Source of the DNA: Cytophagales bacterium
GTDB lineage: Bacteria; Bacteroidota; Bacteroidia; Cytophagales; Cyclobacteriaceae
Direction: 5' to 3'
NCBI GenBank assembly: GCA_017303805.1
Contig: JAFLBQ010000008.1
Coordinates: forward strand, 62,001-126,000
DNA length: 64,000 nucleotides
Shown here: positions 19,241-22,749 of the stretch, in pieces
Layout: each line of letters starts with the position of its first letter
Position numbering within the stretch: position 1 is the stretch's first letter
Notes under the pieces: generated by a model
The model's input: the letters and a program-made list of their open reading frames with translations, nothing else
Databases searched by the model: none
What the model was told of the DNA's origin: nothing
Translations under genes and position numbers: made by a program

Positions 19241-19320
19241 AAGCAGTTGGCAGGGTGCAGTAGGCAGAAAAACTTTCTCTGCTCTTACCGCCTGCTTCCT
19301 GCCTACTTTTCTTTTGCTTC
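19241..19320. repeat. GTAGGCAG-word inverted repeat upstream of leuS
   Basis: The gap before leuS carries GTAGGCAG at 19260-19267 and its inverse CTGCCTAC at 19299-19306, with additional partial words (AAGCAGTTGGCAG, CTGCTTCCTGC, GCTTCCTGCT). This forms a potential long hairpin of degenerate units just upstream of the leuS promoter. Confidence 0.6.
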
Positions 19321-19344
19321 CTGCTAACCCGCTCCGTACTTTTG
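19313..19344 (+). promoter_or_regulatory. Bacteroidota promoter of leuS
   Basis: TTTG at 19313-19316 and TACTTTTG at 19337-19344 with a 20-base spacer match the Bacteroidota housekeeping consensus. The leuS start follows 29 bases after the -7 element. Confidence 0.6.
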
Positions 19345-19373
19345 TGGTTCACATTTTACAGAACTGAACAAAA

Positions 19374-22300
19374 ATGGCCGAATACACCAAAGACGAGATT
19401 AAACGCATTGAAGAAAAGTGGCGTAAAACCTGGATTGAAAAAGAAGTTTACAAGGTTTCGAACGATACCACAAAGCCCAAGTGCTATGTGCTGGATATGT
19501 TCCCCTACCCGTCTGGGGCGGGGTTGCACGTAGGCCACCCGCTGGGCTACATCGCGTCTGATATTTATGCCCGCTTTAAGCGCACTAAAGGCTTTAATGT
19601 GTTGCACCCTATGGGCTTCGATGCCTTTGGTTTGCCGGCCGAACAATATGCGCTGGAGCATGGCATTCACCCGTCTGTTTCTACAGCCGATAACATCAAC
19701 AACTTTAAGCGGCAATTGGGCAACATTGGCTTTTCGTACGATTGGAGCCGCGAGGTGCAGACGTGCGATCCGAAATATTACCGCTGGACACAGTGGATCT
19801 TCTTGCAGATTTTCGATAGCTGGTTTAATCGTAAAAAACAAAAGGCCGAACGCATTTCTGAGTTGGTGAAAATTTTTGAAACGGAAGGGAACGTCAATCA
19901 TCCGATTCCGAATTCAAAATTTCGAATCTTGAATTTCAAATCGAACGATTGGAAAAGCTATTCTGAAAAAGAGCAGCAAGAGATCTTAATGGAGTATCGT
20001 CTCGCTTACCTCGCTTACACCGATGTAAACTGGTGCGAAGCCTTGGGCACGGTACTCGCCAACGATGAAGTAATTAATGGTGTAAGTTATCGCGGGGGAT
20101 TTCCCGTAGTAAAAAGGCAAATGCGCCAATGGAGTTTGCGCATTACCGAATATGCCGACCGGCTTTTGAAAGGATTGGACGAAATCGACTTTAGCGAAAG
20201 CATGAAGGAGATACAGCGGAATTGGATTGGCAAGAGTGTGGGGGCAGAGTTGGAGTTTAGCCTCACCCCCCAACCCCCTCTCCGGGGGAGAGGGGGAGAA
20301 AACTTCGAGAAAGGTTATGAGACTTCAGAAAAAAAATACTGGAAATACCTAAAAGAGTTTGCTAAAGAAAACAGGCTACATCAGACCGAAGAGGAAGATA
20401 TTCTTTGGCAGGAACTAAGAAATAATAGGCTTGGCTTTAAGATCAGAAGACAACACACAATTGGAGTTTTCATTGCCGATTTCGTTTGCCTTGACAGAAG
20501 ATTAGTAATCGAAGTTGATGGAGGCTACCATTTAGCTAATACAGAATTCGATCAGGCAAGAACAGAATTTTTAAACTCAGCAGGTTTTTCTGTTATTCGA
20601 TTTACAAATGAAGAAGTTAAGCAGGACTTGTCGAAAGTTCTTACTTCCATCAAAGATTCATTAGACAAAGCTCCATCCATAAAACAATCCACCCCCCTCT
20701 CCCCTGGAGAGGGGGGTGAGGCGATACGCGTCTTCACCACTCGCCCCGATACCATATTCGGTGTTGACTTTATGGTACTCGCACCTGAACATGATTTGGT
20801 AAAACAAATCACAACACCAGAACAACAAGAAGAAATTGATAAGTACCTGAAATACGTTGAAAGCAGAAGCGAAGTGGATCGCATGGCCGAGGTAAAAAAA
20901 ATTACCGGTGCGTTTACTGGTGCTTACGCGATCAATCCATTCAATGGAAAACAAATTCCGGTGTGGATTAGCGAATATGTACTGGCCGGTTATGGAACAG
21001 GCGCCATCATGGCGGTACCGTGTGGCGATGAACGCGATCACAAGTTTGCCAAACATTTTAATATTCCCATCACCAATATTATCGGCTCGCATTATACAGG
21101 TAGCGAAGCCAACCCCACCAAAGATGCCATTCTCGAAAACTCAGGCTTTTTAAATGGCATGGTGATGCACCAGGCTATTGACGCAGCTATTGAAGAAATT
21201 GAAGCGTTGGGCATTGGTAAACGTAAAGTAAATTATAAAATGCGCGATGCCGGCTGGAGCCGCCAACGTTATTGGGGCGAACCCTTCCCCATCTATTTTA
21301 AGGACGATGTGCCCTATGCGATGAGCGAAAATGAGTTGCCATTGGAACTCCCCCCTTCCAACAACTTTAAACCAAGTGGCAACGGAGAAGGTCCACTCGC
21401 TAACTTAACCGAGTGGATAAACTTTTCACCGAACGCTAAGCGCGACAGCAATACCATGCCTACGCACGCGGGTGCAGCATGGTATTTTTTACGGTACATG
21501 GATCCACACAACACCCACGCTTTTGCAGATAGGAAAGCGTTGGACTACTGGAATCAGGTGGATGTGTACATTGGTGGTTCAGAACATGCTGTTGCACACT
21601 TGTTATACTCACGCTTGTGGACCAAAGTTCTGCACGACTTGGGTAATCTGAATTTTGATGAGCCGTTCAAGAAGTTAATTAATCAAGGAAAGATTACGGG
21701 CGATTCGAGGTTTGTGTATCGGATCCGAGGTACCCAAAAGTTTATCTCCAGCGGCTTGAAGAAACAATATGAAACCGATGAACTCCATGTTGACATTAGT
21801 ATCGTAAACGGATTGGAACTCGATACCGAAGCGTTCAAAAAATGGAAGCCTGATTTCGCCAACGCAGAATTTATTCTGGAAGATAGCGAAGGCAATCCCT
21901 TCCCCACTGGGGAGAGCCAGGGTGGGGTTTACATCTGCGGAAGCGCCATCGAAAAAATGTCTAAGTCCTACTTCAACGTAGTAAACCCCGATCAGATCAT
22001 AAACGATTACGGAGCCGACACGCTGCGCATGTACGAAATGTTCCTCGGCCCATTGGAAGCCAGCAAACCGTGGAGCACGCAAGGCATTGACGGGGTATTC
22101 AAATTTTTAAGACGCTTCTGGAATTTGTTTCATGATAACACCGGCAAGTTAAAAATCACTGATGCCGAACCTACACGCGAGGAATTGAAAGTGCTTCATA
22201 AAACGTTAAAGAAAGTTGAACAGGATATTGAAAACTTCTCGTTCAATACTTCAGTAAGTGAGTTTATGATTTGCGTAAATGAACTTTCATCACTCAAGTG

Positions 22301-22637
22301 CAATAAGCGTGCGGTGTTAGAAAAGTTAGTCATTGCCCTCTCGCCTTTTGCACCCCACATTGCAGAAGAGTTGTGGTCGTTGCTGGGCCATAGCGATACG
22401 GTGCTGAACGCATCCTTCCCTAAATACGATGAAAAATACTTAACCGAAAGTTCGCACAACTACCCTATCTCCATCAATGGGAAAGTACGGGCTCAAATGG
22501 AATTTGCGCTGGACATGCCAAAGGAAGACATCGAAAAGCAGGTACTCGCTTCGGAAATAGTATTGAAGTGGAGCGAAGGCAAACCACCCAAAAAAGTGAT
22601 TGTGGTGCCGGGTAAGATTGTGAATGTGGTGTTGTAG
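19374..22637 (+). CDS. leuS: Leucyl-tRNA synthetase with in-frame DUF559 endonuclease insertion
   Basis: Leucine-tRNA ligase, attaching leucine to tRNA-Leu in the cytoplasm. The class I motifs are intact: HVGH at residues 52-55 and KMSKS at 861-865. The editing (CP1) domain keeps FTTRPDTIFG (454-463) and YGTGAIMAVPCGDERDH. At 1087 residues it is about 150 longer than usual. The excess is residues 297-449, between GAELEFS and AIRVFTT, which form a DUF559/Vsr-like endonuclease domain bounded by palindromes. Two smaller expansions lie at about 178-192 and 842-853, the second at a place where relatives run directly from ILED to YICG. All key synthetase motifs survive and the frame stays open, so the enzyme is presumably functional. 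Confidence 0.95.
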   Translation: MAEYTKDEIKRIEEKWRKTWIEKEVYKVSNDTTKPKCYVLDMFPYPSGAGLHVGHPLGYIASDIYARFKRTKGFNVLHPMGFDAFGLPAEQYALEHGIHPSVSTADNINNFKRQLGNIGFSYDWSREVQTCDPKYYRWTQWIFLQIFDSWFNRKKQKAERISELVKIFETEGNVNHPIPNSKFRILNFKSNDWKSYSEKEQQEILMEYRLAYLAYTDVNWCEALGTVLANDEVINGVSYRGGFPVVKRQMRQWSLRITEYADRLLKGLDEIDFSESMKEIQRNWIGKSVGAELEFSLTPQPPLRGRGGENFEKGYETSEKKYWKYLKEFAKENRLHQTEEEDILWQELRNNRLGFKIRRQHTIGVFIADFVCLDRRLVIEVDGGYHLANTEFDQARTEFLNSAGFSVIRFTNEEVKQDLSKVLTSIKDSLDKAPSIKQSTPLSPGEGGEAIRVFTTRPDTIFGVDFMVLAPEHDLVKQITTPEQQEEIDKYLKYVESRSEVDRMAEVKKITGAFTGAYAINPFNGKQIPVWISEYVLAGYGTGAIMAVPCGDERDHKFAKHFNIPITNIIGSHYTGSEANPTKDAILENSGFLNGMVMHQAIDAAIEEIEALGIGKRKVNYKMRDAGWSRQRYWGEPFPIYFKDDVPYAMSENELPLELPPSNNFKPSGNGEGPLANLTEWINFSPNAKRDSNTMPTHAGAAWYFLRYMDPHNTHAFADRKALDYWNQVDVYIGGSEHAVAHLLYSRLWTKVLHDLGNLNFDEPFKKLINQGKITGDSRFVYRIRGTQKFISSGLKKQYETDELHVDISIVNGLELDTEAFKKWKPDFANAEFILEDSEGNPFPTGESQGGVYICGSAIEKMSKSYFNVVNPDQIINDYGADTLRMYEMFLGPLEASKPWSTQGIDGVFKFLRRFWNLFHDNTGKLKITDAEPTREELKVLHKTLKKVEQDIENFSFNTSVSEFMICVNELSSLKCNKRAVLEKLVIALSPFAPHIAEELWSLLGHSDTVLNASFPKYDEKYLTESSHNYPISINGKVRAQMEFALDMPKEDIEKQVLASEIVLKWSEGKPPKKVIVVPGKIVNVVL
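19909..19943. repeat. AT-rich palindromic expansion inside leuS
   Basis: A stretch with arms ATTCAA (19912-19917) and TTGAAT (19929-19934), built from the words GAATTCAAAATTTCG and CTTGAATTTC, encodes IPNSKFRILNFKSND. Relatives as I recall them have a variable loop here, so this may be a repeat that entered in frame. The assignment is tentative. Confidence 0.35.
20261..20300. repeat. Left terminal palindrome of the leuS insertion
   Basis: CCTCACCCCCC, then a 10-bp stem (CCCCCTCTCC / GGAGAGGGGG) with a GGG loop. Translated in frame it gives SLTPQPPLRGRGGE. Confidence 0.85.
20688..20721. repeat. Right terminal palindrome of the leuS insertion
   Basis: A perfect 13-bp stem (CACCCCCCTCTCC / GGAGAGGGGGGTG) with a CCT loop, followed by AGG. 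It is inverted relative to the left copy and reads STPLSPGEGGE in frame. Confidence 0.85.
21897..21927. repeat. Solitary decayed copy of the C/G-rich palindrome in leuS
   Basis: CCCTTCCCCACTGGGGAGAG followed by CCAGGGTGGGG: a TCCCC/GGGGA stem with a G-rich tail, the same order (stem, then GGGTGGGG-type end) as the reverse complement of the left palindrome at 20261. It encodes residues 842-853 (PFPTGESQGGVY region), directly before the YICGS...KMSKS segment. No endonuclease ORF accompanies it. Confidence 0.6.
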
Positions 22638-22749
22638 ATAGCTACTGCTTCAGGCATTTAACTTTCTTGGATTTCAGGAAAGTTTTTGAAAATCATTCTT
22701 GATTAACAGGAAATCCTACCAATCAAATGATATTGTTCATTTAAAAATG

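Follow-up and report, generated by a model that had tools for sequence, protein, structure and literature searches.

A stretch of 64,000 nucleotides from a Cytophagales bacterium (contig JAFLBQ010000008.1, positions 62,001 to 126,000), here called the window, carries the leucyl-tRNA synthetase (LeuRS) gene leuS, in the frame of which a DUF559 nuclease domain is nested between inverted palindromic ends (Table 1). The initial annotation had described leuS as one uninterrupted frame, which was confirmed, and its insert limits, 20261–20721, were correct to one base. The insert is 459 nt long. Pfam placed LeuRS domains on both sides of DUF559, in agreement with a nuclease nested in the synthetase, and a terminal fusion was rejected. 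A second intact leuS, which the annotation had also considered, was not found in the genome above the TIGR00396 cut-off. The nuclease has a GC content of 35.7%, compared with 46.6% and 45.5% in the two parts of leuS, and the GC content at third codon positions is 31%, compared with 57% and 51%. The insert contains no ATG and no GTG, and its single TTG, at residue 419, lies past the motif residues; therefore, the nuclease would hardly be produced except as part of LeuRS.

Table 1. Features of leuS and its insert, in window coordinates.
Feature	Position	Strand	Basis
leuS, leucyl-tRNA synthetase gene, host of the insert	19374..22637	+	Single 1087-aa frame; Pfam, TIGR00396
In-frame insert, 153 codons, residues 297–449	20262..20720	+	Comparison with 19 empty congener genomes; DNA junctions
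Left end: palindromic repeat R, similar to repetitive extragenic palindromic (REP) sequences, CCTCACCCC..CCCCTCTCC-loop-GGAGAGGGG	20261..20296	+	Inverted repeats I1, I2, I4; genome copies
Right end: repeat R inverted, finishing ..GGGGTGAGG	20690..20721	+	Inverted repeats I1, I2, I3; similar ends in congeners
DUF559 (PF04480) nuclease domain, residues 325–430	20346..20663	+	Pfam; structure model; fold matches
Motif codons Asp369 (20478), Glu380 (20511), Asp382 (20517), His386 (20529)	20478..20531	+	Invariant in 40-row alignment

The match to PF04480 scored 112.9 bits against a cut-off of 20.6 (E = 8.4e-33) and covered profile positions 2–108 of 109, bearing out the earlier call of a complete domain with Asp369, Glu380, Asp382 and His386. 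These residues, D73, E84, D86 and H90 of the insert, occupy invariant alignment columns, and we take them to be the catalytic residues. When 172 non-identical DUF559 domains were pooled (three shorter pieces having been set aside before counting), the D..ExDGxxH motif was present in 171, including all 111 nested ones. A model of the nuclease domain (ma1b4d351a2d3) had a predicted local distance difference test (pLDDT) score of 84.9, and fold comparison matched the insert model to the catalytic core of I-Bth0305I. By profile and fold, the insert is a DUF559 domain with a homing-endonuclease core fold. The annotation had also proposed predicting the structure to see whether the nuclease folds independently: in a model of the whole LeuRS, the nuclease seems to form a module of its own, bordered by low-confidence linkers at residues 301–315 and 437–447, but the model itself is weak (mean pLDDT 71.8, predicted template modelling score 0.51). 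If the frame is translated, the nuclease would be displayed on the synthetase. Published passages assign DUF559 to the EDxHD homing family (PMC9403480) and describe a DUF559 protein of Caulobacter, VsrA, as acting as a Vsr-like nuclease, with a proposed role in mismatch repair (PMC12907096).

We considered the possibility that the segment is an intron, intein or bypass element, taken out at the RNA or protein level or skipped by the ribosome. The inverted ends could pair across the insert, which speaks for such a reading. However, a cmscan search of 19300–22700 with E up to 1 returned nothing beyond a chance mir-59 match (E = 0.62), and Pfam gave no match to a protein-splicing (Hint) domain in LeuRS at E 0.001. 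An intron or intein was rejected on these negative Rfam and Pfam results, and the earlier statement that splicing signals are lacking holds as far as tested. Moreover, in the carriers read, an open insert joins its two flanks in a single frame, which would be unneeded if the segment were removed, and there is no ATG or GTG for the nuclease in the window. Removal or bypass is thus very improbable.

The leuS site was compared in 36 genomes sampled from the genus, our own included, and could be read in 32 of them (not in G004, G009, G021 and G028). Twelve had a nuclease, one (G020) had palindromes only, and 19 were empty, with a short stretch of 25–33 residues in the alignment extract; in G054, palindromes without a nuclease were seen by eye at the same site, called site A below. 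Seven further carriers were added from a DUF559 search of the genus, a choice that favours carriers. The annotation had pointed out that an ancient domain would leave all close relatives with the same length; with 19 of the 36 sampled genomes, or 19 of the 32 readable ones, empty, an ancient domain passed down vertically was rejected. Two nuclease lineages (type 1 and type 2) use the site within the genus. When the four states (type 1, type 2, palindrome only, empty) were placed on a tree built from 60 LeuRS cores without the insert columns, 20 of the cores being from other genera, 20 changes were required, compared with a mean of 19.6 for shuffled labels; 165 of the 200 shuffles gave a count no higher. 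The starred branches alone imply 14 or more changes between empty and not empty. Close pairs differ in state (G023/G012, G035/G007, G013/G022 and G075/G006), and in relatives of the same type the inserts can differ far more than the host: in G010/G065 the core is 95% and 94% identical and the insert 67%, and in G000/G060 the core is 93% and 92% identical and the insert 79%. From these comparisons, repeated arrival appears to fit the scattered states and unlike inserts best, rather than descent. A higher rate of change in the insert may explain part of this, since synonymous sites are near saturation. Within 30 nt of the junction, carriers are mutually more alike than they are to non-carriers (8 of 1000 permutations on the left, 50 of 1000 on the right); the 0–15-nt windows alone do not show this (77 and 218 permutations), and beyond 30 nt the sign turns. 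As a sign of transfer with co-conversion of the flanks, this weak excess of carrier identity, reversed further out, is suggestive only. At a further site in the LeuRS of G039 (L146 590–3709, minus strand), frame residues 647–737 form a degenerate DUF559 domain that has lost the motif Asp and His.

The domain extends well beyond the genus. DUF559 was present in 40 of 58 genomes sampled from the genus, 239 of 391 from the order and 222 of 392 from the phylum, the three samples overlapping; in the phylum, 39 of the 150 matches listed lie in open frames of at least 700 aa. In a named scan of the best 80 of 538 relatives, 79 belonged to Bacteroidota or had no named phylum and one was labelled Myxococcales, and 57 of these 80 domain hits had at least 100 aa before and at least 80 aa after the domain in one frame. 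By set, the 111 nested domains comprise 25 of 58, 36 of 41 (loci chosen for long frames) and 50 of 73. The domains classed as standing alone include nested-looking copies at contig ends (L078, L201 and L255) and joins to N- or C-terminal neighbours.

Pfam covered 24 proteins in all, and the remaining hosts were called by BLAST clustering. LeuRS accounts for 61 of the 111 nested cases, with 48 at site A, where the N-terminal flank ends at core residue 295–299 in 45 of 48, 12 at site C, which precedes the stretch TMPGWAGSSWY, and one elsewhere. MetH is the host in 15 cases, 12 of them in the linker preceding the B12 domain, followed by IleRS (8), UvrD (6), methylmalonyl-CoA mutase (5), RecG (4), UvrA (3), HsdM (2) and GH31 (2), and by HsdR, an ISP-type enzyme, an MmeI-type enzyme, ValRS and an unnamed host (L113) with one each. 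One MetH (L193) carries two cassettes. Nine host families contain 106 in-frame cases and one out-of-frame case, a ratio that is flattering because some of the loci had been picked for their long frames. In the out-of-frame case, the MetH of G205 (L187 2158–6320), the cassette splits the gene into two overlapping frames. In all but one of the 111 nested cases (110 of 111), the nuclease has a lower GC content than its host.

On a tree of the 172 nuclease domains, which has few columns and 31 of 169 branches starred, the site labels need 48 changes, compared with 97 when shuffled, showing that site and nuclease lineage are linked, not fixed. The nuclease at LeuRS site A of G075 pairs with that at site C of G020 (94), and the Mucilaginibacter site-C cassettes (95, starred) fall inside the mutase cassettes (branches 88–91). 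Sequence comparison establishes that one site is used by different nuclease lineages and that related cassettes occur in different genes, as well as the frame and architecture of the insert, its intact motif and the empty sister sites. Phages were rejected as a major vector, having contributed four of 50,697 records, all below 60% identity.

These distributions bear on two further explanations. An assembly or binning artefact might be suspected, as the source genome consists of 13 contigs. However, site A is occupied in many independent genomes, and records that bear strain titles, not those of metagenome-assembled genomes, include Pedobacter arcticus A12, Flavobacterium lacus and Taibaiella soli for site A and Rufibacter ruber CCM 8646 for a MetH cassette; an assembly error, about which the annotation had been cautious, is for this reason scarcely credible. 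Alternatively, the nuclease could be a domesticated domain that serves the host within LeuRS, in repair, defence or RNA work. Its median ratio of nonsynonymous to synonymous change is low (0.057 for type 1, from only 6 of 28 pairs, and 0.093 for type 2, from only 4 of 45, compared with 0.050–0.058 for the core), its motif is intact, and a domain of the same family forms the Vsr-like nuclease of Caulobacter in the passages cited (PMC12907096). Domestication nevertheless appears improbable, given that most readable genus genomes are empty at the site, that the site state is no less scattered than shuffled labels, that similar cassettes sit in hosts of unrelated tasks, and that G039 has retained its degenerate copy. 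PADLOC gave no match for the insert, and a known defence protein was rejected on this basis.

The ends of the insert connect it to a family of repeats. Inverted arms of 29 nt at 20268–20296 and 20693–20721 are 90% complementary, and the linkers around the nuclease are translated palindromes. The palindrome core of R was found at 20 places in the genome with at most three mismatches, and its reversed control at none. Fifteen of the 20 were located: two are the insert ends, three lie within long open frames and ten outside long frames. Given these further copies in the genome, the ends are members of a REP-like family, and the insert has the appearance of two inverted palindromes enclosing a nuclease gene. 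The three copies within long frames are palindromes without a nuclease, lying in frame in genes that by eye encode a methylmalonyl-CoA mutase (L013 1501–1521, C1:39926), an aspartyl-tRNA synthetase (L014, C7:60610) and a thiamine pyrophosphate (TPP)-dehydrogenase-like protein (L015, C7:358148); the copy in the mutase is near the linker where Mucilaginibacter carries a nuclease. R had been expected to keep a single frame with respect to the host, but this was not found: the left motif, readable in 54 of the 111 nested cases, occurs in all three phases (34, 12 and 8).

Inverted repeats also accompany the domain elsewhere. When 130 nt on each side of the nested domains were scored, 73 of 111 reached an inverted-repeat score of at least 12, compared with none of 110 controls placed 300–430 nt out in the same frame. 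Among standalone domains, 21 of 57 scored at least 14 in 250-nt flanks, compared with none of 50 controls. Four of four DUF559 genes on plasmids, of Picosynechococcus, Pseudanabaena, Sphingomonas and Deinococcus, had inverted GC-rich repeats on both sides (scores 16–40, controls 7–9), with palindrome sequences that differ from R; these loci were taken from the best-covering hits of 40 records, which favours copies with read-through ends. On the Sphingomonas parapaucimobilis plasmid, the palindrome-flanked gene lies between sufB and sufC (L315 1234–1644).

The main rival explanation is that the palindromes themselves are the mobile unit, REP- or REPIN-like and moved by a REP-associated tyrosine transposase (RAYT) or by replication and recombination, with DUF559 as cargo that does not drive the movement. 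Solitary palindromes outnumber nucleases (our genome has one DUF559), three other genes of the genome hold them in frame without a nuclease, site A has palindromes only in G020 and, by eye, in G054, and REPs within genes are on record, as in passages on uvrA and further repair genes (PMC3733652). However, none of the four exact 9-base R motifs searched for was found within about 1.5 kb of any of the three Y1_Tnp matches in the genome, so that a RAYT of its own genome was rejected as the mobiliser; the motif is kept in every nested nuclease; and the plasmid genes, from three other phyla, are likewise flanked by inverted GC-rich repeats. We consider a cargo role for the nuclease unlikely, if less so than the alternatives above. 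One weak Y1_Tnp match (L319) lies amid hairpins of the GGTTCGTG type, apparently a different REP family.

We therefore favour, with a probability of roughly 0.7, a mobile cassette in which a DUF559/EDxHD nuclease between inverted REP-like palindromes colonises loops and linkers of conserved genes by in-frame read-through, without splicing. The initial annotation had offered a selfish in-frame element as one of two readings, and it gains preference from the empty site in sister species, the inverted palindromes, the low GC content of the nuclease relative to its hosts and the presence of cassettes in unrelated proteins. In such a cassette, the insert frame would be translated and the nuclease produced solely as a domain of the host protein, leaving LeuRS functional with the nuclease attached. 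Occupied leuS DNA reaching a cell with an empty allele would allow the nuclease to cut the vacant host-gene allele, or perhaps a palindromic R end, and repair from the occupied copy would then move the cassette in the fashion of a homing endonuclease. Rare ectopic repair might seed new sites, with the survivors being mostly in-frame insertions at tolerant loops, and solitary palindromes could be non-autonomous relatives or remnants.

The cassette shares features with several known systems. It has the core fold of the EDxHD homing endonucleases (I-Bth0305I, PDB 3r3p), and, as with these, occupied and empty alleles of one site occur in close relatives; however, 3r3p is labelled “Mobile intron protein”, whereas the insert lies in the host frame between palindromes, with no intron or intein found. 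Inteins are in-frame inserts bearing nucleases at recurrent sites in conserved proteins. The insert resembles them in these respects, but it has no splicing domain, sits in loops and linkers and gives no sign of removal. With REP/REPIN sequences and their RAYTs it shares short GC-rich palindromes, single or in inverted pairs, together with a nuclease gene, but here the nuclease is DUF559 instead of a tyrosine Y1 transposase, its gene stands between the two palindromes, and it shares the reading frame of the host. The insert has an inverted pair of short palindromes; no RAYT (Y1_Tnp) gene with any of the four exact R motifs within about 1.5 kb was found, and by eye R does not show the REP tags GTAG or CGTC. 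Rickettsia palindromic elements (RPEs), of about 150 bp, likewise lie in frame in many unrelated proteins (PMC10969869); the passages describing them mention no nuclease, whereas the cassette has one. Other DUF559 or Vsr-like nucleases (3hrl; Caulobacter VsrA) do not, as far as seen, lie within a host protein.

Passages in the literature already describe REPs and RPEs within genes (PMC3733652, PMC10969869), and no description of palindrome-bounded DUF559 cassettes in frame within host proteins was found in the openly licensed PubMed Central literature. Here, enzymes of translation, repair and metabolism carry a nuclease with a homing fold within their reading frames, at sites that are hit repeatedly. 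Homing nucleases are generally considered to depend on introns, inteins or intergenic locations so that the host gene is spared. If the cassette is mobile, in-frame tolerance alone would suffice to carry a selfish nuclease, the insertions would provide a natural map of where LeuRS, IleRS, MetH and other proteins tolerate added sequence, and the origin of many orphan REP-like palindromes would become directly testable. A bolder proposal, to which we give somewhat less than even odds, is that such cassettes form a distinct class of mobile element, “in-frame homing without splicing”, which persists in conserved proteins solely by keeping the frame at linkers, and that DUF559 may take the role of RAYTs, mobilising a major share of REP-like palindromes in Bacteroidota and perhaps also in Cyanobacteriota, Deinococcota and Alphaproteobacteria.

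Some further variation was seen in LeuRS. At 19905–19945 of the window (residues ≈178–190), the sequence PNSKFRILNF looks like the in-frame translation of a second, AT-rich repeat; several congeners have NSKFKIQNF-like stretches at these residues, and KIQNSKFKI-like ones occur at empty site A. The linker before KMSKS (residues ≈780–806 in our LeuRS) is longer by several dozen residues in some congeners, whereas others lack the extension, and no profile match to DUF559 was found in this linker in the genus rows scanned. DUF559 was also joined in frame at the ends of frames for N-formylglutamate amidohydrolase, an amidohydrolase, and QueG or RecQ (L098, L100, L099, L101, L103, L115–L118, L122 and L224; L098, L101, L116 and L224 by Pfam, the rest by eye), representing either read-through from a neighbour or real fusions. 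By eye, DUF559 shares one frame with parts of guanylate kinase in L272 and of the tRNA pseudouridine synthase TruB in L278.
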